64,000 nt of DNA from assembly GCF_019242955.1 (NCBI RefSeq), contig NZ_CP066129.1, positions 868,001 through 932,000 on the forward strand. The letters are read 5' to 3'. Below the pieces are notes generated by a model. That model searched no databases. It was not told where the DNA came from and saw nothing but the letters and a program-made list of their open reading frames with translations. The translations under genes and the position numbers were made by a program. Origin of the DNA: Morganella morganii. Lineage in GTDB: Bacteria; Pseudomonadota; Gammaproteobacteria; Enterobacterales; Enterobacteriaceae. Shown here piece after piece: positions 10,598-63,579 of the stretch; the stretch's first letter is position 1; every line of letters starts with the position of its first letter.

Positions 10598-11410
10598 CTA
10601 TTCGGTCGTTCCATTTATCTTCTCACACAATTCTTCCGCAGCCTTTAACAGCCGCGGCGTGCCGCGCTGGAACCAGTCGGCATTGATAGTAATAACCGGC
10701 ACATCAAGCTGCGGAGACCAGAAGCGTTTTACATTCTCCACTTCGCGGTCATCCCCTGAGATCAGGATCATCGCCGGTCTGCGGGTCAGTACCTGCTCAC
10801 GATTGACCTGCGGCCAGGGAACCGGGCTGTCGGCAAACACGTTTTTACCACGGCACAGTGTGACCACTTCGCTTTGCAGGGTGTTGCCGGATGCGGTAAA
10901 AATCGGGTTCTGGCCGAACTGGAGAAAGATCCGTTTTTCCGGTTTATCACCGTAGCGGGCTTTCAGGGTTTCAATCCCGCTGCGCATATCTGAAGCAGCT
11001 TGTTCCGCCAGGGCCGGTTGCGGACTGTAAGAAGCAAGGCGATCCAGATCATCCGCAATTTCACCGAGGTTGTGCGGATCAAAATACTCGACTTTTATCC
11101 CGAGATGCTCCAGCTGACTCAGCGGGCGCTGCGGGTTGCCGCCGCGCCAGGCCATGATCAGATCCGGCTTCAGGGCAATAATACGTTCAAGATTCAGTCC
11201 CTGCCAGCTGGACACCTGTTCGATGTTTTTTGCTTCCGGGGGGTAATCCGCGTTGGCACTGACGCCGACCAGGTTATCTCCCAGACCGGCGGCATAGGCC
11301 ATCTCCGCCAGTGACGGGGAGAGGGCGATCACCCGCTGTGCCGCAGCCTGTGCTCCGGCGGATGCCAGCAGAAACAGCAGACCGGCGAAGCGCAATGATC
11401 GTCTGATCAT
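10598..11410 (-). CDS. btuF: Vitamin B12 ABC transporter periplasmic binding protein BtuF
   Basis: Periplasmic cobalamin-binding protein that delivers B12 to BtuCD. It is 270 residues with a cleavable Sec signal ([20 protein letters not shown], then QAAA). The mature protein begins [20 protein letters not shown], typical of class III helical-backbone binding proteins. Length is close to E. coli BtuF (266 aa). The start codon overlaps the mtnN stop by four bases, the same mtnN-btuF order as in E. coli. No convincing terminator follows it, and the acquired avcD segment ends right behind it. Confidence 0.95.
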
Positions 11411-12108
11411 TTCAGCGAATCAATATTGGCGAGGATTTCCGCCACCATCAGGGAAGACTGCTTTGCCGCCAGCGGCAGAAACTCATCAAAACTGAGGTGA
11501 GAGGCTTTATCTGCCACATCAGAAATGGCGCGAACCACCACAAACGGTACCTGATACTGATGGCACACATGGCCGACAGCCGCACATTCCATTTCCACCG
11601 CCACCACGGACGGGAACGTTGCACGGATACGCGCCAGCGGCTCTGCGCCGTTAATAAAGGCGTCACCGCTGCAAATCAGGCCGCGTACGGCGTTCAGGCC
11701 GAGCGTCTGAATACATTTCTCAGTCAGTGTGATAAGACCGGCATCAGCGGTAAAGGCAGGCGGACATTGTGCCATCTGGCCCGGCTCGTAGCCGAATGCA
11801 GTGACATCCGCGTCGTGATAACGGACTTCCGAGGAGACAACAATATCGCCGACATTCAGGTGCGGGGCGAGGCCACCGGCAGAACCGGTGTTAATCACCA
11901 CATCCGGTTTGCACAGCTCCAGCAGCAGGGTGGTACCGATGGCGGCCGCCACTTTACCGATACCGGATTTGAGCAGGGCGACATCAACACCGTTGATCTG
12001 ACCGGTATAGATTTCACAGCCGCCGTGGCGGAGGGTTTGCATGTTGGTAATCTGATCACGCAGCAGGGTTACTTCCTGCTCCATCGCACCTATGATACCG
12101 ACTTTCAT
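11407..12108 (-). CDS. mtnN: 5'-methylthioadenosine/S-adenosylhomocysteine nucleosidase
   Basis: Hydrolyses MTA and SAH (and 5'-deoxyadenosine) to adenine plus the ribosyl thio compound, in methionine salvage and the autoinducer-2 pathway. It has 233 residues; E. coli Pfs has 232. [20 protein letters not shown] is the conserved start, [20 protein letters not shown] the phosphorylase-like loop, and [16 protein letters not shown] carries the catalytic Asp. A frame-open extension upstream of ATG 12108 was discarded because the family begins at MKVGIIG. First gene of mtnN-btuF, divergent from dgt. Confidence 0.96.
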
Positions 12109-54672: not shown

Positions 54673-55110
54673 ATGCATGAATCATTACTTATCGCCCTTT
54701 TGCAGGCCCGTGAAGTGGTCCTCGGCTACTTTCGCCCGACCCTGAAAGCACACCGGCTGACAGAGCAGCAGTGGCGGATTATCCGCATACTGGCTAAGAC
54801 CCCGTCACTCGATTTTCATCTCCTGGCACAGAAAAGCTGTATTCTGCGTCCCAGCCTGACCGGCATTCTGACAAGGATGGAAAAAGCGGGCATTATTCAC
54901 CGGCTCAAACCCCTCAGTGACCAGCGCAAACTCTATCTCTCCCTGACTGACGAGGGCACGGCGTTGTATCACCGTGTTCAGGCGGAAGTGGAGACCGGCT
55001 ATCAGGCGCTGGAACTACAGTTCACGCCGGAGAAAGTACGTCAGCTCTATGCGCTGCTGGATGACCTGGTTGCACTGCCGCAGCGTGACGGCGGTGAAGA
55101 AGAAGAATAA
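54673..55110 (+). CDS. hpaR: MarR-family regulator HpaR
   Basis: A 145-residue MarR-type repressor of the homoprotocatechuate degradation genes. MHESLLIALLQAREVVLGYF and LTEQQWRIIRILAKTPSLDF closely follow E. coli HpaR. The winged helix is ILRPSLTGILTRMEKAGI, wing LKPLSDQRKLYLSLTDEG. Divergent from the aldehyde dehydrogenase gene, its probable target. The pathway's ring-hydroxylating and ring-cleavage genes are not in the window. Confidence 0.87.
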   Translation: MHESLLIALLQAREVVLGYFRPTLKAHRLTEQQWRIIRILAKTPSLDFHLLAQKSCILRPSLTGILTRMEKAGIIHRLKPLSDQRKLYLSLTDEGTALYHRVQAEVETGYQALELQFTPEKVRQLYALLDDLVALPQRDGGEEEE

Positions 55111-55154: not shown

Positions 55155-57155
55155 TTATTTCTTGCCGAGCAGATGCAGGAAATGAATATGTTTTTCATAC
55201 TGGTCAAGGATGTCATGAATGATCTGCTCCTTGTTCCAGCCCATGATGTCATAATCCTGTCCGCCCTCTTTCAGATGAATTTCAGCGCGGTAATAGCGGT
55301 GCTCCTCATCTTTTTCCTCATCCGTCATACCGGACAGCGCAAAAGAAGGCTGATTGTAATAGCGCAGGCGGGTTTCATAGATAAAGTTCATATCATCGCC
55401 CAGATCGACCTCAAAGGTGATCCTGTCATCACGGCTGCGGTCGATATGGCTCGGGGTGCTCTGTTTTTCCAGCTCCTGCGACACCATCTCCATCGCTTCT
55501 GACACCACTTCATCAATAAAGCGCTTAACCAGCGAACGTTTCGGGAAATAGCCGATATTACGCAGGCGGCGCTGCCACGGGATCGGATTGCGGCTTGCGG
55601 TCGGTGCAATCGTCGCCAGCTGCTGGCTGTCGCGTTTATGCACATCAATCCGCAGTGCTTTAATCAGTCCGTAAATTGAGAATAACAGTACGACGGCAAA
55701 CGGCAGAGCACTGGCGATAGTCACGGTTTGCAGGGCAGATAATCCCCCCGCCAGCAGCAGAGTGATGGCTACCACGCCCATCAGTCCGGCCCAGAAAATC
55801 CGCTGCCAGACCGGGGTGTGTGTATCCCCGCCGGAGGCGAGGGTGTCCACCACCATCGCGCCGGAGTCAGCGGAAGTCACAAAGAAGACAATCACCATCA
55901 GCATGGCAAAGAATGAAAGCACGGTGGAGAACGGGAAATACTCAAGGAACTGGAACAGCGCCAGTGATACATCCTCTTTCACGACTGTTGCAAGTGCAGT
56001 GGCACCCTGATTTTTGATCAGATCAATAGCGGTGTTACCGAAGAACGTCATCCACAGCAGGGTAAAGCCCGCCGGGACAAATAACACGCCGAAGACAAAT
56101 TCACGGATGGTGCGCCCGCGTGAAATCCGCGCAATAAACATCCCGACAAACGGCGACCATGACAGCCACCAGCCCCAGTAAAGCAGCGTCCAGCCACCCA
56201 GCCAGTCATCGGATTTCGGCTCATAGGCGAAGAGATTAAAGGTATTACTGACGATTTCAGAAAGATAACCGCCGGTGTTCTCAACAAAGGATTTCAGCAG
56301 CAGTACCGTCGGGCCTAACACACCAACCATAATCAGCAGCAGAACCGCCAGACCGAGGTTCAGTTCTGACAGAAAACGGATGCCTTTATCCAGACCGGAC
56401 ACCACTGACAATGTTGCCAGTGAGGTGATCACCACAATCAGCACCACCTGAACGGTTTCGGTCTGCGGCAGGCCGAACAGATGATTCAGCCCGGCATTCA
56501 CCTGTAACACGCCGAAACCGAGGGAAGTCGCGACCCCGAAGACGGTACCGACCACCGCGAAAATATCCACCGCATGACCGGCTGCACCGTAAATACGATC
56601 ACCGATAATCGGGTAAAGCGCGGAGCGCAGTGTCAGCGGCAGGCCGTGGCGGTAGCTGAAAAACGCAAGGATCAGCGCCACAACCGCGTAAATAGCCCAG
56701 GCGTGTAACCCCCAGTGGAAGAAGGTCAGGCGCATGGCCTCTTTTGCCGCTTCAACCGTTTCCGGTGTGCCGACAGGCGGGGAAAGATAGTGCATCACCG
56801 GTTCGGCGACACCAAAGAACATCAGCCCGATCCCCATACCGGCGGAGAACAGCATGGCAAACCAGGATATATAACTGTACGCCGGACGGGCGTGGTCAGG
56901 GCCGAGTTTAATATCACCGAAACGGGACAGCCCCATAAAGGTGACGCTCAGTAAAATCAGGGCGACGGCGAGAATATAGAACCAGCTGGCATTTTTAAAC
57001 AGGCTGGTCTGAAGGGCTTTAAGATGTATATCCGCCGTCTGGGGAAACAGGGCGGCAAAGCCGACAATCAGGAGAATAACCAGGGCCGAAATATAAAAAA
57101 CCGGCGGATTAATCTTCATTTTTTTTGCGGATTGTTCAGTGTCCTGATGACTCAT
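55155..57155 (-). CDS. betT: BCCT-family choline transporter BetT
   Basis: A 666-residue proton-coupled, high-affinity choline uptake protein for osmoprotection. It has twelve membrane segments. The BCCT signature includes WTLLYWGWWLSWSPFVGMFI, and GMGIGLMFFGVAEPVMHY is the glycine-rich substrate segment. A long cytoplasmic C-terminal tail (about residue 490 onward) senses osmolarity in E. coli BetT (677 aa). AAGGAATAATTC precedes ATG 57155. No betI, betA or betB in the window. Confidence 0.92.
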   Translation of the reverse strand: MSHQDTEQSAKKMKINPPVFYISALVILLIVGFAALFPQTADIHLKALQTSLFKNASWFYILAVALILLSVTFMGLSRFGDIKLGPDHARPAYSYISWFAMLFSAGMGIGLMFFGVAEPVMHYLSPPVGTPETVEAAKEAMRLTFFHWGLHAWAIYAVVALILAFFSYRHGLPLTLRSALYPIIGDRIYGAAGHAVDIFAVVGTVFGVATSLGFGVLQVNAGLNHLFGLPQTETVQVVLIVVITSLATLSVVSGLDKGIRFLSELNLGLAVLLLIMVGVLGPTVLLLKSFVENTGGYLSEIVSNTFNLFAYEPKSDDWLGGWTLLYWGWWLSWSPFVGMFIARISRGRTIREFVFGVLFVPAGFTLLWMTFFGNTAIDLIKNQGATALATVVKEDVSLALFQFLEYFPFSTVLSFFAMLMVIVFFVTSADSGAMVVDTLASGGDTHTPVWQRIFWAGLMGVVAITLLLAGGLSALQTVTIASALPFAVVLLFSIYGLIKALRIDVHKRDSQQLATIAPTASRNPIPWQRRLRNIGYFPKRSLVKRFIDEVVSEAMEMVSQELEKQSTPSHIDRSRDDRITFEVDLGDDMNFIYETRLRYYNQPSFALSGMTDEEKDEEHRYYRAEIHLKEGGQDYDIMGWNKEQIIHDILDQYEKHIHFLHLLGKK

Positions 57156-57585: not shown

Positions 57586-58095
57586 TTACTGAGCATCCCC
57601 GGTTTTTTCTGAGACATCCTGTTTCAGCTCATCAATTTTTTTATCAGCGGCGGCTTTGGCTTCATCCGCTTTTTGTTTCAGCTCTGCGGCTTTTTCTTCC
57701 GCGGCTTTTTTGGCGTCTTCGCCTTTATCTTTGGCGTCAGCCAGCAGGGCATCCGCTTCTTTCTTCAGTTCATCCGCTTTGGCATCAGCATTATCACGGA
57801 TTTCGCCGGCTTTCTCTTTCGCATCAGCCATTACCGCTCCGGCTTTTTCTTTGGCATCACCGGCGGCTTCTGTGGCGTCCTGTTTCAGTTCTGCGGCTTT
57901 CTGCTCTGTTTTATCAGCTGCGTCTTTGGCATCCTGCTTCAGTTCATCCGTTTTCTGTTCAGCGGCTTCTTTTATCTGCGCAGCGCCTTCCTGTGCTTTT
58001 TGCGCAGCAGGGTCGGTTTTGCTGCTGTCGTCACAGCCGGTGGCCAGTGCGAATACCCCTGCAAGGATGAGTGAACTTAATAATGCTTTCTTCAT
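57586..58095 (-). CDS. Lys/Ala-rich repetitive lipoprotein (LEA-like)
   Basis: A 169-residue lipoprotein: signal MKKALLSSLILAGVFALATGC with the lipidated Cys at 21. After it the whole chain is charged and helical, built of imperfect 11-residue units such as KADELKKEADA, KAAELKQKADE and DELKQDAKDAA, without aromatic or further Cys residues. This resembles LEA/apolipoprotein-type amphipathic helices linked to envelope or desiccation stress, but the function is not known to me. GAGGAG precedes ATG 58095. Monocistronic. Confidence 0.8.
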   Translation of the reverse strand: MKKALLSSLILAGVFALATGCDDSSKTDPAAQKAQEGAAQIKEAAEQKTDELKQDAKDAADKTEQKAAELKQDATEAAGDAKEKAGAVMADAKEKAGEIRDNADAKADELKKEADALLADAKDKGEDAKKAAEEKAAELKQKADEAKAAADKKIDELKQDVSEKTGDAQ

Positions 58096-58405: not shown

Positions 58406-59083
58406 ATGACATATTATCTTCTGGTTATCGTTAAATTTATCATCGGCTTTGTTATTGTGTTAACGCACATGAATCTCTCCGGTAAAACCCAATTATCACA
58501 AATGACACCGGTTGATTTTATCGGAAACTTTGTACTGGGCGGCATTATCGGCGGGGTTATTTACAGTGATACTATTCCGCTGACGCAATATATTATTATA
58601 CTGCTGATGGGCGTGAGTTTTATCAGCATAATCAATTGGGTCAGTAAGCATATCAATGTCCTGCGGGCGGTAACTATCGGTAACCCGATCCCGATTATTA
58701 AGAACGGGGCGTTTATCATGGACAGCATTCATGAGAAGCGCAATAAAATCGATATTCTGAATATCACTTCCCGCATGCATTCACGGGGGATCTATTCATT
58801 CCGTGATGTATATTATGCGCAGATAGAGCCGGACGGTCAGCTGACGGTGATTTGTGACCAGTCACAAATGCCGTCTGTCATCGTGATGAAAGACGGCGTG
58901 CCGCGCAAACATGAGCTGGAACAGATCGGTCATGATGAGGAGTGGCTGGCAGACCACCTGAAACAGCAGGGCATTGACGATCCTGAGACCGTGTTCCTGG
59001 CGGAGTTTTATAACGGCAGCCTCAATGTGGTGATGAAAGACGGGCGGATGACCGGCCATCACCGCGAACCGTCACAGCCGTAA
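58406..59083 (+). CDS. DUF421 (YetF-type) membrane protein
   Basis: A 225-residue protein: three N-terminal membrane segments (to about residue 80), then a cytoplasmic DUF421 domain with PIPIIKNGAFIMDSI and ELEQIGHDEEWLADHLKQQG. MTPVDFIGNFVLGGIIGGVI is typical of the family. The function is unknown; Bacillus homologues (YetF group) are linked to spore and membrane stress. TAAGGAAATACC precedes ATG 58406. Ends three bases before the convergent deoR-type gene. Confidence 0.82.
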   Translation: MTYYLLVIVKFIIGFVIVLTHMNLSGKTQLSQMTPVDFIGNFVLGGIIGGVIYSDTIPLTQYIIILLMGVSFISIINWVSKHINVLRAVTIGNPIPIIKNGAFIMDSIHEKRNKIDILNITSRMHSRGIYSFRDVYYAQIEPDGQLTVICDQSQMPSVIVMKDGVPRKHELEQIGHDEEWLADHLKQQGIDDPETVFLAEFYNGSLNVVMKDGRMTGHHREPSQP

Positions 59084-59085
59084 GA

Positions 59086-59841
59086 TTACGGCACGATAAC
59101 GACTTTTTCCGGATATTTTTCGCGGAATTCGTGTGCTTTCTGCCATTTATCGTCACAGATAATTTTATCGATAACGGCAATTTCCGCGATTTTTAAAATC
59201 CCCTGCTGGCCGAATTTACTGGAGTCGGCCAGAATAATTTTCTGCTTACTTTTCTCCAGCATTTTCCGTGCAATCATTCCTTCCTCAACACTTTTGACCA
59301 GAATACCTTCATCGCGCACACCGCCCGCGCCGACAAAGGCGAAATCCGCATAGATATGATCAATCTCATGCAGGGTTTTTGCGCCCAGGTTGGCGCGGAA
59401 TTCATGGCTGTATTCACCACCCAGCACATAGACTTTTGCCAGCGGATTTTGTGAGGTGATTTTATCCGCGATAAGGGCAGAGTTGGTGAAAACGGTAAAC
59501 GCAATGGCCGGTAACTGCGCGGAAAACAACAGTGTTGTCGAACAGGAATCGATATACAGTGTATCGTGTTCGGAAATCAGTCCGGCGGCATAGCGTGCGA
59601 GCGCCATTTTTTCCTCACGGTTCAGTTCCAGCCGCTGCTCAAAGCTGCCTTCGCTGACACTCTTTTTCTTCATTGCCCCGCCGTGGATTTTGATGATCTC
59701 GCCCTCTTTCTCCAGAATAGAGAGATCACGGCGGATCGTCTCAGAGGTGACATTCAGCGTATCAGCGAGATCCTGCACACTGACCTCGCCTTTCTGATTC
59801 AGCAGATCGAGGATATATTCCTTTCTTTTTATCGGATTCAT
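59086..59841 (-). CDS. DeoR-family transcriptional regulator of the adjoining operon
   Basis: A 251-residue DeoR-type repressor. Helix-turn-helix: [20 protein letters not shown] with [18 protein letters not shown]. The C-terminal sugar-phosphate isomerase-like sensor domain has the [12 protein letters not shown] and [14 protein letters not shown] motifs. These regulators usually respond to a phosphorylated sugar. ATG 59841 ([14 protein letters not shown]) fits the family; an ATG four codons earlier is possible. It is the last gene of the permease-TIM-HAD-deoR set, 43 bases behind the HAD gene. Confidence 0.88.
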
Positions 59842-59884
59842 GACCGTTCTCATCACACTCGTAAACATGAACAATATTAGCGCA

Positions 59885-60694
59885 TTATGCACCGTTGCGA
59901 AATGCCGCCCTGTAATGCTGAAGTGCGGCAGCAACGCCATCTTCCCGGCAGTCAGCGGTAATGTATCCGGCGGCCTGCTTCAGTGCCGGAACGGCATTGC
60001 CCATCGCCACACGGATATCTGCTGCGGCAAATAAAGAGAGATCATTTTCCTGATCTCCGATGGCCATAATGGTTCCCGGCCGGAGAATACCGCGTGCCAC
60101 CAGTATATGCAGGATATTTCCTTTGCTGACCGATGCCGGAACCAGTTCAAAATAGTGCTGATCAGTAAAGAACGCACTGATGTCCGCCGGTAACTGCGGC
60201 CGCAATACGTCTGCCCGGCAGAGAAGTGTTTCTGCTTCCCCGCACAGGGTGATTTTGATGATATCTGCCCGGCTGAGAATATCGTCAGCAGCCATGGTAT
60301 GCATTGGCAACCCGAATAATTCAGATTCATGGATTGTGTATTCTGATATTTCTCCGGGCGGACAGAGCAGGGCATCTTCACTGAATGCATGCCAGCCGGC
60401 GGTGAGAACATTCCGCAACGGGGATAACATGGCCGGAGACAGGCTCGTCCGGCTCAGGACAGATTGCGTGCGGCAGTCATAAATCACCGCGCCGTTGCAG
60501 GCCCCGATAGCCCGGAGTACCGGAAGAAGCCCGGCACTGTTCATCAGAGACAAAATCGCCCGCAGCGGGCGGGCAGAGCAAATCACAATATCTGTTTCCG
60601 GCGGCAGCGCCAGCAGTGCCCGGCGGTTAGCCTCTGAAATCATATTGTCCGGGTGCAGCAGGGTGCCGTCGAGATCGATAGCCAGTGTTGTCAT
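59885..60694 (-). CDS. HAD-family (Cof-type) phosphatase of the unassigned operon
   Basis: A 269-residue HAD phosphatase: motif [14 protein letters not shown], motif [11 protein letters not shown], motif [22 protein letters not shown]. Cof-type enzymes dephosphorylate sugar phosphates, PLP and similar compounds. ATG 60694 is selected by homology, since the open frame upstream is not HAD. Between the TIM-barrel gene and deoR on the same strand. Confidence 0.87.
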
Positions 60695-60737
60695 AAAAAG
60701 CCTCAGCGGGAGCGAAGCCCCCGCCCGGGAATGCCGG

Positions 60738-61580
60738 TCAGTCGTGATGAATGAAGGATTGAGTGACCTGTGCGGCCGCCTGACACACCACGTTATCAAT
60801 TGCGGTGCCGACCACCAGAATATTCACGCCGGTTTCTTTAAATGCTTTGGCATTGGCGACGTTAATACCGCCTTCTGCCAGTGTCGGGACACTGACCGCC
60901 CCCACCAGCGCTTTCAGGCGGGCTTTAATCTGATCAGGGATTTCACCCGCAGCCACACCCTCGTAGCTCATACCGGTCATCAGGCCGATCATATCCACGC
61001 CGATGGCTTCCATTTTCTTCGCCACTTCCGCGACGTCTTCCGGGGTTTCTGCCGGAATACCGAAGGTGTGCAGATCGTCAGGGTGACCAATGTAGGCATC
61101 CACGGTCAGGCCGAAGCGGTGCGCAAGATTGACAATATCTGCCAGATCTTCAAAGGTGGATTTATGGGTGTGCAGGCCGTCTGCTCCGGCGCGGGCAATT
61201 TGTAAAATGTCTTCTTCAGTCACCGGGACGGGGATGGTTTCGGTGAATCCGCCGGCGATCCCGACAGTAATAAAGACATCATCCGGGATAACATTACGGA
61301 TACCGTTAACGGCTTCCGCCATCTGTGCGGTGGAGATCTCATGGCGGATCTGCTCGGCGGCGTGCATGTTATTCACGCCTCTGTGCCCGCGTGCCAGTGC
61401 CAGCGCCGGATGGTTCGGCTCCAGCATTTTGACCCCGGCATCACACACAGCTTTCGCCAGTCGCGCGTCATCACCGGTGATACCTGTGCTGAGCAGCGTT
61501 TGTCCGTTGTGCAGCGCAATCGCATTTCTGACTTTCGCCATCGCCTGTGCACGTTTTTTATTCATATCACCTATAAACAT
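60738..61580 (-). CDS. TIM-barrel protein, aldolase/epimerase-like, of the unassigned operon
   Basis: A 280-residue (beta/alpha)8-type protein. The C-terminal phosphate-binding loops are evident: VPTLAEGGINVANAKAFKET followed by GVNILVVGTAIDN. Potential catalytic residues occur in MLEPNHPALALARGHRGVNN, DDVFITVGIAGGF and DGLHTHKSTFEDL. The fold and loops suggest a phosphorylated substrate, but I do not recognise the enzyme. GAGG precedes ATG 61580; the ATG five codons later is less well placed. It is 121 bases behind the permease gene, and a CRP-like site lies in that gap. Confidence 0.65.
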   Translation of the reverse strand: MFIGDMNKKRAQAMAKVRNAIALHNGQTLLSTGITGDDARLAKAVCDAGVKMLEPNHPALALARGHRGVNNMHAAEQIRHEISTAQMAEAVNGIRNVIPDDVFITVGIAGGFTETIPVPVTEEDILQIARAGADGLHTHKSTFEDLADIVNLAHRFGLTVDAYIGHPDDLHTFGIPAETPEDVAEVAKKMEAIGVDMIGLMTGMSYEGVAAGEIPDQIKARLKALVGAVSVPTLAEGGINVANAKAFKETGVNILVVGTAIDNVVCQAAAQVTQSFIHHD

Positions 61581-61658
61581 ATCAACCTCTTATTACTTTT
61601 TTATATTTTGTGTGACGGCACCCGGAGGTGCCGTTTTCATAAAGCCCTGGTGTTGGCG

Positions 61659-61674
61659 TGTGATATTTTTCACA
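61659..61674. promoter_or_regulatory. Candidate CRP site between the permease and TIM-barrel genes
   Basis: TGTGA-TATTTT-TCACA, a perfect match to the CRP half-sites TGTGA-N6-TCACA. It lies 79 bases before the TIM-barrel gene start, which hints at an internal catabolite-controlled promoter. Confidence 0.7.
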
Positions 61675-61701
61675 CTTACTATTTGCTGTGTAGTCTTTGC
61701 A

Positions 61702-63276
61702 TCAGCCTGCTGCTTTCGCGGTTGTCACGGCACTGAAACGGTTGGCGATGACAGTAATGGTGCAGGTTAAAACCAGAATCACGGTCATGGTCAGCGCCAT
61801 GTAAAGTGCATTACTGGATAAGAACGGAGAGGCAAACGCTGGTACATACGCCACCCCTTTGACATTAAACATACCGAGCATCATGCCGCCGATCCCGGCG
61901 GAAAGAATGGCACCGCCGAACACGATTTTGTTGGCAAACATGAAAGGATATGCCGATTCCACAAAGGTCCCGAATCCCATATTGATCAGCAGTCCCGGTG
62001 CGGCAACCGCCGCTTCACTGCGTTCACGCGGGGCAATGACGTTTGCCAGGTTAATCCCTGCTGCCACCATCACCAGCCCGACCATATCCACCGCGCCGAG
62101 GAAGCTGACACCGGTTTTTTCCATCTCAAGCAGCACCAGCGGCAGGATCACCGCGTGATAGACACCGCCGAGGATCGCAGGCCAGATAACCAGACCCGCC
62201 AGCAGACCCGCCAGTACCGGGCTGAACGCGAGGGTGCTTTCCAGCGCCAGCTTGATGTAGTTACCGGCCAGCAGTGCCAGCGGGCTGAGGAAGTAGAACA
62301 TGATAAGACCGGCGGCCAGACCGGAAATCCCGCCCGCCACGATGTTCACGGTGGTCATCGGGAATTTCCAGCTGATACACAGCGCAAACAGGTAACGGAC
62401 AAAAATACCCGCCATGATCCCGCCTGCGATCCCGCCAATCAGCCCGCCCTCGACAGAGAGCACCCCGGCGACGACCCCGGAAACAATAGAGACTTCATCC
62501 AGCTCGGAAACCTGTTTGGCTGCAATCACCGCCACAATCACCGGCAGCCCTTTGAGCAGCAGCTGGAAAATCGCATCCAGGCTTTCCAGCCCCGGGATAT
62601 GACTCAGCGCCAGCACAATCGCCATGGCAATAAAGCCGGGCAGGGCGGGGATCATAATACCGCGGATATTCATCCGCTTAAGCAGGCTCTTATCAGACGG
62701 CCCGCCGGCACTGCCTGCACTGCCCAGAACCGGACGGAATTTAATCCCCCAGTGTTTGCACAGCGAGGAGATAAACGAGATGGCCCGGGTTCTGCTGGTG
62801 GTACCGGTGGTTCCGGAAGTGGCAATCACATTGGCACCGGCAGCGGCGATATGAGCCATAGAGGTACCGCCGGTCCCGGCGATCGGGACTTTCTTTTCTG
62901 CTGCGGCCTGAAGTGCGAGACGGTTGGCGTTGTGCGGATCGCCGCTCATAATAATGATGCCGTCGATATCGCCCTGTTCTATCAGCCGGGCAATCTGTTC
63001 ATCACTGCCGCGCACTGCATCGTTGACTTCCGCCAGAGTGCCGGAGAACGTGATTGCAGGTACGGCATCTGCGTCTGTCAGGGTGTAGACCGCGGCGGCG
63101 GTAGTGGGTTTGGCAACATCCATCGACGCCTGTGCTGCAATAAACTGCACTGCAGCAACAGAAATACCGGCGGACTGACATTGCGTGTAGATTTCGCTCA
63201 GAAGTTTTTCAGGATCTGCACCACCGAGGTTGTACAGGTTCCCGCCACTACTGCCCAGTATGACAATTTTTTTCAT
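61702..63276 (-). CDS. PTS EIIC-like permease with an N-terminal Rossmann-like domain
   Basis: A 524-residue fusion. Residues 1 to about 200 form a soluble alpha/beta domain: KKIVILGSSGGNLYNLGGAD, IIIMSGDPHNANRL and GTGGTSMAHIAAAGANVIAT are glycine/serine-rich nucleotide- or sugar-binding loops. Residues 205-524 are hydrophobic with about ten membrane segments, resembling PTS EIIC (GFGTFVESAYPFMFANKIVF, GGMMLGMFNVKGVAYVPAFA). No EIIA or EIIB phosphorylation motif is obvious in it or beside it. ATG 63276 lies behind GAGGTCC. First gene of the permease-TIM-HAD-deoR operon. The substrate is unknown. Confidence 0.7.
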   Translation of the reverse strand: MKKIVILGSSGGNLYNLGGADPEKLLSEIYTQCQSAGISVAAVQFIAAQASMDVAKPTTAAAVYTLTDADAVPAITFSGTLAEVNDAVRGSDEQIARLIEQGDIDGIIIMSGDPHNANRLALQAAAEKKVPIAGTGGTSMAHIAAAGANVIATSGTTGTTSRTRAISFISSLCKHWGIKFRPVLGSAGSAGGPSDKSLLKRMNIRGIMIPALPGFIAMAIVLALSHIPGLESLDAIFQLLLKGLPVIVAVIAAKQVSELDEVSIVSGVVAGVLSVEGGLIGGIAGGIMAGIFVRYLFALCISWKFPMTTVNIVAGGISGLAAGLIMFYFLSPLALLAGNYIKLALESTLAFSPVLAGLLAGLVIWPAILGGVYHAVILPLVLLEMEKTGVSFLGAVDMVGLVMVAAGINLANVIAPRERSEAAVAAPGLLINMGFGTFVESAYPFMFANKIVFGGAILSAGIGGMMLGMFNVKGVAYVPAFASPFLSSNALYMALTMTVILVLTCTITVIANRFSAVTTAKAAG

Positions 63277-63579
63277 AATCGGACCTCAGGGGGTTCAGGG
63301 TAAGTAACGACTTATTGTTGTTTTTTGTTGATATTGCTTGGTATAACAACGTAAAGCAACACATCTAAATAAGACGTGTTGTTTATTAAATAACCGCTGA
63401 ATGGATTCGATTAAGGTGAAGTGGTGTTAAACAGGAAATTTTTTAGTGTTACAAACTTAAAACTACGATTTTTGTTTTATTTTATGCTATTTAATTATTA
63501 ACTAATTATTTTGCTTTATGTTGTTTTGTGTGAGTTTGATCATAATTAACTGGACTTATTACACACGGAAACCACACAA
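63277..63579. promoter_or_regulatory. Control region of the permease operon
   Basis: About 300 AT-rich bases between lldD and the permease gene. Contains CAACAC...GTGTTG inverted half-sites (63356-63382) and repeated GTTGTT/AACAAC elements around 63314-63352 that suit a DeoR-type operator, plus a CRP-like site at 63529-63544. Confidence 0.5.
63529..63544. promoter_or_regulatory. Candidate CRP site upstream of the permease operon
   Basis: TGTGA-GTTTGA-TCATA, 9 of 10 matches to the CRP half-sites. It lies 253 bases before the permease start, so either the mRNA leader is long or the site acts at a distance. Confidence 0.5.

Follow-up and report, generated by a model that had tools for sequence, protein, structure and literature searches.

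A two-gene module of an EIIC-fold permease and a TIM-barrel protein in an operon of Morganella morganii, with probable independence from the PTS phosphorelay

A 64,000-nucleotide stretch of Morganella morganii DNA (assembly GCF_019242955.1, contig NZ_CP066129.1, positions 868,001 to 932,000 of the forward strand; hereafter the window) carries on its minus strand an operon of four genes, encoding a permease (PERM), a TIM-barrel protein (TIM), a HAD-type phosphatase (HAD) and a DeoR-family regulator (DeoR). Comparison with other genomes revealed that the conserved unit consists of two genes, PERM and TIM, and that the Enterobacterales operon is one version of a widespread module. The C-terminal part of PERM has, in the predicted model, the EIIC fold of the phosphotransferase system (PTS), and PERM probably functions without the phosphoenolpyruvate (PEP) phosphorelay. 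With a probability of roughly 0.55, we consider PERM to be a PTS-independent EIIC-type permease feeding a phosphosugar enzyme similar to HisA and HPS.

The four-gene operon

The genes lie in the order PERM (63276 to 61702, 524 amino acids), TIM (61580 to 60738, 280 amino acids), HAD (60694 to 59885, 269 amino acids) and DeoR (59841 to 59086, 251 amino acids), separated by 121, 43 and 43 bases. These gaps refer to the ATG starts chosen for HAD (60694) and DeoR (59841); the longer starts given by the open reading frame (ORF) caller, a TTG in the case of HAD, would overlap TIM and HAD, respectively. The original prediction, made from the letters of the window alone, had described four same-strand genes with these gaps, and the ORF coordinates confirmed this observation.

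HAD belongs to the HAD-IIB (Cof-type) phosphatases, with matches above cut-off to PF08282 (146 bits, Pfam cut-off 20.9) and TIGR01484 (68 bits, cut-off 41.8) and one slightly under the cut-off of 137 to TIGR00099 (129.5 bits). Both the helix-turn-helix and the sensor domain of the DeoR/GlpR family were matched above cut-off in DeoR (PF08220, 65.4 bits; PF00455, 137.6 bits), and the earlier family calls for these two proteins stand. PERM matched zero Pfam families at E up to 0.1, hence not PF02378 (PTS_EIIC) above cut-off, and a single NCBIfam model, with 15.5 bits where the cut-off is 332. TIM fell below all family cut-offs in the Pfam and NCBIfam searches. The host genome is 4.14 Mb in size, and its PERM is 99% identical to the permease of M. 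morganii H1r.

Distribution and the conserved unit

TIM loci were collected by a genome scan with two TIM peptide patterns, of which the best 80 of 85 relatives were taken and one plasmid locus was added to give 81; the scan started from TIM, and permeases without TIM lay outside its reach. ORFs in the cluster tables were chosen by length, so that some TIM genes are hidden there behind antisense ORFs, and PERM was counted by tblastn. It was found at 74 of the 81 loci, at 69 of them full-length, with 48-99% identity. The seven loci without PERM are L015, L068 and L091, all cyanobacterial, and L047, L071, L093 and L095; among the Nostoc neighbours of the cyanobacterial TIM homologues no metabolic genes were recognised. 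Both genes are complete at 67 loci (fragments and interrupted genes excluded); at 65 of these PERM immediately precedes TIM in the same orientation, with gaps of -8 to 244 bases and seven overlaps. L033 and L081 are the exceptions, having TIM first, and in L081 an aromatic amino-acid lyase gene (PF00221) on the opposite strand lies between TIM and PERM. Full-length PERM occurs in Pseudomonadota, Bacillota, Chloroflexota, Spirochaetota, Mycoplasmatota, Actinomycetota and one metagenome-assembled genome (MAG) of Planctomycetota.

The remaining two genes characterise the Enterobacterales version, with HAD present at 16 of 17 Enterobacterales loci (L030 being without it), DeoR at 17 of 17, and the four-gene order repeated at 16 of the 17 other Enterobacterales loci. 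The DeoR gene of L018 (Morganella psychrotolerans; 10615-11503) is split into two ORFs, likely a loss of the regulator. The HAD family of the operon adjoins PERM-TIM only in Enterobacterales; at L090 (Bacillaceae) a different HAD-type gene follows TIM. Among the 64 non-Enterobacterales loci, a gene of the GntR/UTRA cluster was found at 37 (within 600 bases in 36) and one of the DeoR cluster at five, and six Chloroflexota loci carry a gene for a 360-aa protein, of which the tested member had no Pfam match; these clusters were named from few Pfam-tested members (one GntR, three DeoR and one of the Chloroflexota cluster). Ten more recurrent neighbour clusters, one of them without a match, represent ordinary flanking genes (MATE, LysR, argininosuccinate synthase, pseudouridine synthase). 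A Clostridiales-1 RNA (L063:1-139, minus strand, 77.1 bits) lies about 100 bases upstream of the PERM gene of that locus, on the opposite strand. The original prediction had set such a neighbourhood survey beforehand as its refuting test: PERM and TIM were found to travel together, HAD did so only in Enterobacterales, and the four-gene set proposed as the unit is corrected to PERM and TIM, with the GntR cluster in place of the other two genes at the 37 loci above.

Within the genus PERM was found in 6 of 6 genomes, in 0 of 34 additional genomes of the family and order, and in a phylum-level draw of 299 genomes in the window's own genome only. All four genes are present in 3 of 5426 E. coli genomes, with 79.7% identity to the Citrobacter query. 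In the two E. coli records viewed, the operon is located between a slipin gene and yjbD, and its products bear the RefSeq names 'PTS sugar transporter', 'histidine biosynthesis protein', 'Cof-type HAD-IIB family hydrolase' and 'DeoR/GlpR family DNA-binding transcription regulator'. An order kept in this way across Enterobacterales loci and E. coli is more than chance. A plasmid search yielded neither PERM nor the Citrobacter operon, and TIM on one Nostoc plasmid only. In a midpoint-rooted PERM tree the Enterobacterales form one clade with Bacillaceae as sister (support 95/83 and 100/100), which suggests that the Enterobacterales operon was acquired from the Bacillaceae side. In the sequence libraries and literature that we searched, with most subscription journals outside their reach, neither a published account of the PERM-TIM module nor a characterised homologue was found, the latter a finding that would have gone against the original prediction.

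Structure of the permease

The whole of PERM was folded with AlphaFold2 (48 homologues in the alignment, mean pLDDT 86), and the model consists of an alpha/beta N-terminal domain (N-domain; residues 1-180, window positions 62737..63276, minus strand) and a C-terminal domain of residues 196-520. In VIA comparisons the latter matched EIICs of the glucose/maltose/trehalose class with Z 19-26 across 304-321 residues; the best matches were to 9a6a_B (Z 26.0) and a PtsG entry (Z 22.7), both integrative models, and the crystal structure of MalT (5iws) gave Z 19.3. Sequence comparison pointed the same way. PTS_EIIC was matched by 9 of the 48 PERM homologues at E up to 1 (best 1.3e-6), hhalign aligned PERM with a profile of five GFL EIICs over 262 columns (probability 51%, E 1.5e-4), and GFL EIIBC queries reached three PERM genes by tblastn (E 1e-5 to 3e-4). 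H374 of PERM aligns with the conserved His of GFL EIICs and E440 lies one position off the Glu of the GITEP motif, residues that we take to be significant in EIICs. From fold comparison, profile alignment and tblastn, the EIIC-fold domain was placed at residues 198-524 (61705..62685, minus strand). These data show that the C-terminal part of PERM, as modelled, has the PTS EIIC fold, and the EIIC-like membrane part described in the original prediction is borne out. EIIB and EIIA Pfam domains were not found in PERM.

An alpha/beta domain standing in place of EIIB, as had been proposed, is present in the model, and the N-domain has no kinship to EIIB by hhalign (0.13%). Its invariant residues are S9 S10 G11 G12, D53, N85, S111, D113, N118, G134-G137, S154-T157 and R164. 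The Gly/Ser/Thr loops are invariant across 43 diverse rows of the alignment, as would be expected of a ligand site. A search of 398 genomes from the phylum of genome G343 with the N-domain profile gave strong matches only within three already known permeases, together with three further weak matches (E 0.0009-0.008); no standalone N-domain was found there at strong E. Foldseek listed pyrophosphate-dependent phosphofructokinase (PPi-PFK) and L-asparaginases at E 0.1-0.6. A phosphofructokinase or asparaginase identity was dropped, the VIA matches being unspecific in level and a profile search of the PDB with the N-domain giving a best E of only 0.5.

Occurrence without Enzyme I and HPr

The N-terminal domain of Enzyme I (EI; PF05524) was not found in 8 of the 49 genomes with a PERM match. 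HPr (PF00381) was not found in the same eight genomes and was present in 8 of 8 other genomes tested. A GFL-type EIIB domain was not found in 19 of the 49. Two of the 49 genomes have an interrupted PERM gene (L039 and L092), and neither is EI-less. The PERMs of the eight EI-less genomes keep 30 of 30 conserved positions examined in both domains, these positions having been selected for being conserved. With EIIA, EIIB and EIICB queries, a separate EIIBC/EIIA set was detected at 1 of the 81 TIM loci (L062), more than 6.5 kb from the PERM-TIM pair.

Because EI and HPr are missing from one and the same set of genomes, true absence is a better explanation than gaps in the assemblies, and since PERM keeps its conserved positions in these genomes, the phosphorelay is probably not essential to it. 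Here lies the INDEPENDENCE from the PTS: PERM, judged by co-occurrence, probably does not depend on the PEP phosphorelay. The original prediction had offered an EIIA and EIIB encoded elsewhere as one of its two explanations; because EI and HPr on the one hand and GFL EIIB on the other were not found in the carriers counted above, this is unlikely as a general answer.

The TIM-barrel protein

TIM is 64% identical over 275 residues to PDB entry 4ML9 from Sebaldella termitidis, and its model superposes on that structure with Z 44.9 and 1.0 A over 275 residues. No paper in the literature searched names 4ML9. At E up to 0.01, HPS models matched 52 of 53 TIM homologues, the HisA model PRK13585 46 of 53 and NanE models 42 of 53. 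TIM is thus a ribulose-phosphate-binding-type barrel, in support of the phosphate loops noted in the original prediction. The window TIM itself scored 18-26 bits against the HPS, HisA and NanE models, with cut-offs of 189-593 (for the HisA model NF010114, 18.5 bits with a cut-off of 305). It did not match PF00977 (HisA/HisF) at E up to 10, a family matched at that level by 14 of 53 relatives (best 2.3e-6); nor did it match DUF7916 (PF25509) at E up to 10, which 8 of 53 homologues matched (best 1.5e-5).

Genes of DUF7916 were also located in the carrier genomes. Ten such loci were viewed with 1.5 kb flanks, and five of them have an adjoining true PTS EIIC gene, in some cases with EIIB and/or EIIA. 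These EIIC neighbours (DUF7916 loci L129-L137 and L139) span at least two PTS classes and represent another unassigned partnership of an EIIC with a TIM barrel. Together with TIM beside PERM, there are thus two related TIM-barrel families each tied to EIIC-type uptake.

In fold, TIM is also near the PrpB/PEP-mutase lyases (Z about 20) and TrpA (Z about 18-19). Its second fold match was 2p10 (Z 21.7), which we take to be a PF09370-type protein, and PrpB-type lyases follow within about 1 Z (20.7). In bacteria the plant Tm-1 protein has its counterpart in UPF0261, and the loops of the N-domain looked UPF0261-like by eye. A Tm-1-type relationship was considered on these grounds and dropped because hhalign gave probabilities of 14% for TIM with PF09370 and 13% for the N-domain with UPF0261. 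The host genome has a PF09370 gene adjoining a UPF0261-like gene outside the window (L100, G000:C1:815562-819359).

Linkage to imidazoleglycerol-phosphate dehydratase

A gene for a HisB-type imidazoleglycerol-phosphate dehydratase (IGPD) lies within 2.2 kb of TIM or PERM at 13 of the 64 non-Enterobacterales loci, 12 of which have PERM. Found in other phyla, this link could not have been seen by the author of the original prediction. The gene order is PERM-TIM-GntR-hisB in Lachnospiraceae. In L050 the PERM-TIM-GntR trio is situated within a histidine operon (hisZ-like, hisG, hisD, PERM, TIM, GntR, hisB, hisFIE-like, with hisZ named by eye), in L071 hisB immediately precedes TIM, and in L072, from Actinomyces, the genes downstream are those for an aminotransferase and hisB.

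Twelve of the 13 IGPD-linked genomes were searched (L053 was left out), and the identity of the genome-wide IGPD match with the linked gene was judged from coordinates. The linked gene is the sole full-length IGPD in 11 of the 12; L046 has a second. HisG and HisD were found in 9 of the 12, on a contig other than that of the linked IGPD in 7 of the 9, and in 8 of the 9 the linked IGPD is the sole full-length one. Neither was found in the genomes of L037, L041 and L042, so that the known route to histidine would be closed there. Orphan, divergent IGPD genes are found near PERM-TIM in all three (L037:10804-11733, L041:10687-11427 and L042:10675-11415), and their products keep the metal motifs HHxxED and HHxxE. 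A degenerate IGPD-fold protein without the His metal motifs (L046:4696-5238; PF00475, 23.7 bits, cut-off 27) is encoded between TIM and GntR in L046.

Among TIM-carrying genomes, a set that includes L047 and L071 with no PERM at the locus, HisG was not found in 20 of 48, HisD in 19 of 48 and IGPD in 19 of 49. A search of 22 loci at Rfam gathering scores gave no His T-box. With so many TIM carriers lacking HisG or IGPD, the link is, in certain lineages, to the IGPD step, its chemistry or its regulation, and not to histidine synthesis generally. The orphan dehydratases linked to the pair suggest chemistry of the imidazoleglycerol-phosphate type that does not belong to histidine biosynthesis.

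Upstream sequences and neighbouring genes

A CRP-like site with one mismatch to the consensus (63529..63544, minus strand) lies 268 bases upstream of PERM and is followed by AAAACAACA. Such a site is present upstream of PERM in 18 of 18 Enterobacterales regions at up to two mismatches and in 9 of 18 at up to one, these 18 sequences being related; at up to one mismatch, the only level shuffled, it occurred in 1.4% of simple shuffles, which did not preserve dinucleotides. Over the whole window four CRP-like sites were found with a mean of 1.74 expected, an excess that is not significant. The word AAAACAACA follows the CRP-like site in 7 of 8 upstream regions examined and is a lead for a possible DeoR operator. 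The PERM-TIM gap contains a perfect CRP-consensus palindrome (61659..61674, plus strand), a consensus match that could also be a short hairpin; its core is the same in three of four other Morganella gaps and has one change in the fourth, and it is absent from the four PERM-TIM gaps of other genera examined.

Beyond the operon, a YetF/DUF421 membrane protein gene (58406-59083, plus strand) ends two bases before the end of the DeoR gene and is convergent with the operon, an unrelated neighbour. It is preceded by genes for an Ala/Lys/Asp-rich, lipoprotein-like protein with weak likeness to YtxH (57586-58095, minus strand), the choline BCCT transporter BetT (55155-57155, minus strand; NF007399, 744.8 bits) and the regulator HpaR (54673-55110, plus strand; TIGR02337, 169.2 bits), the last two being ordinary.

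Proposed mechanism and alternative explanations

PERM and TIM probably form an alternative route for the uptake and processing of a compound. The EIIC part would bind and move a small polar, likely sugar-like solute. On the inner side the N-domain would bind a nucleotide or phosphorylated ligand, so as either to transfer phosphate from a different donor to the solute as it enters or to gate transport. TIM, as a barrel of the HisA/HPS/NanE/RPE type, might then isomerise, epimerise or split the resulting phosphate ester; in Enterobacterales, HAD could hydrolyse a phosphate that arises as a product or as overflow, and DeoR, possibly helped by CRP, would keep the operon repressed as long as no sugar-phosphate intermediate is present. 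The pathway may touch the imidazoleglycerol-phosphate step in some Bacillota and at one Actinomycetota locus, because a HisB-type dehydratase gene is linked there. We infer every one of these chemical steps from the gene order, folds, conservation and co-occurrence that were observed.

Several points weigh against this reading. It names no substrate, and the N-domain offers little to define its role: its best sequence matches are weak (Peripla_BP_4 in 9 of 43 rows, counted at E up to 1, best 1.4e-6; MGS in 9 of 43, best 1.7e-4), no kinase signature was recognised in it, and its fold neighbours at VIA Z about 8-9 are unspecific (type II dehydroquinases, PurE, MurG, binding proteins). The kinship of TIM to DUF7916, whose genes adjoin true EIICs, is moderate (hhalign 76.6%). 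As to the absence of EI, six of the eight genomes are MAGs and possibly incomplete, and the contig of one Chloroflexota MAG (L085) may be misbinned, its PERM branching among Bacillota. The two isolates, Tissierella praeacuta DSM 18095 and Longilinea arvoryzae KOME-1, are drafts, and close Tissierella relatives carry HPr. On the PERM tree the EI-less label required 6 changes with a shuffle mean of 7.7, and 11 of 500 shuffles were as low, a mild clustering in a test that counted tree rows not searched for EI as EI-bearing. Finally, searches of the window host gave two matches to EI, three to HPr and six to GFL EIIB, so that a PTS partner is possible there.

This last point also favours an ordinary PTS, in which PERM would be an EIIC served by EIIB and EIIA encoded elsewhere, with delivery of a sugar phosphate to TIM and the N-domain as an accessory. 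EI is present in 41 of 49 carriers, RefSeq names the E. coli homologue accordingly, H374 and E440 are kept near the substrate-site residues of GFL EIICs, and the DUF7916 relatives of TIM are found with true EIIBC and EIIA. We nevertheless regard it as unlikely, given the carriers in which EI, HPr or GFL EIIB were not found, the single distant PTS gene set among the 81 loci, and an N-domain unrelated to EIIB. A facilitator of the EIIC type that does not phosphorylate, with the N-domain as a sensor or gate and a separate kinase acting on the solute, is a possibility that we hold only tentatively. It would account for PERM in genomes without EI and HPr matches and for the weak likeness of the N-domain to one lobe of sugar-binding proteins (Peripla_BP_4). 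However, no carbohydrate kinase was recognised among the annotated recurrent neighbour clusters (only part of the neighbours being annotated), and loops invariant in diverse rows are beyond what a mere gate would seem to require. Kinase-like genes, judged by eye, lie nearby in L064 and L051.

Two further explanations involve imidazole compounds. PERM might be a self-contained group translocator, in which the N-domain stands in for EI, HPr, EIIA and EIIB and phosphorylates the solute offered by the EIIC domain, with a nucleotide, pyrophosphate or some metabolite as donor instead of phospho-EIIB. TIM, joined in some phyla by a dehydratase of the IGPD type, would act on an imidazole- or polyol-phosphate that has no part in histidine biosynthesis. 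This proposal is speculative and somewhat less probable than an ordinary PTS. The most doubtful is salvage of a histidine precursor, where PERM would import an imidazole-bearing polyol or glycoside, TIM would make or handle imidazoleglycerol phosphate and HisB would continue to histidine. The arrangements in L050, the Lachnospiraceae, L071 and L072, the linked gene serving as the only full-length IGPD beside HisG and HisD, the lyase gene between TIM and PERM in L081 and the RefSeq name of TIM all speak for it; the many TIM carriers without HisG, HisD or IGPD, the three loci with an IGPD-like gene and neither HisG nor HisD, and the 22 loci without a T-box speak against it. The PTS-independent permease feeding a phosphosugar enzyme remains our preferred reading.

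EIIC permeases are defined by their dependence on the PEP phosphorelay. A conserved EIIC-fold family that has an invariant extra domain where EIIB would be, and that persists without detectable EI and HPr, would show how such a permease can be freed from the relay or linked to a different donor, and the near-constant partner of PERM belongs with 4ML9, an enzyme whose structure is solved and which lacks a function.

Comparison with known systems

For TIM, the nearest known protein is 4ML9, a solved and uncharacterised TIM barrel, with which it shares full-length homology and fold. With the HPS, HisA and NanE barrels it shares the C-terminal phosphate-binding half, and the HPS and NanE matches leave its N-terminal half uncovered. 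Its likeness to the Tm-1-type pair of UPF0261 and PF09370 is confined to the fold match with 2p10, only about 1 Z above PrpB-type lyases. DUF7916 is a TIM-barrel relative likewise found near EIIC genes, but those EIICs are true PTS ones.

The closest system for PERM is the PTS EIIC of the GFL superfamily (PF02378; MalT 5IWS, PtsG), with which it shares the fold and, in matching regions, the His and Glu motifs. It differs in having no attached EIIB or EIIA, none being detected by our queries at 80 of the 81 loci either; in an N-domain without likeness to EIIB; in the window PERM itself falling short of PF02378; and in its occurrence in genomes without EI and HPr matches. PERM thus belongs to a known kind, the EIIC permeases, and what is new is the extra domain in the place of EIIB and the apparent independence from the relay.

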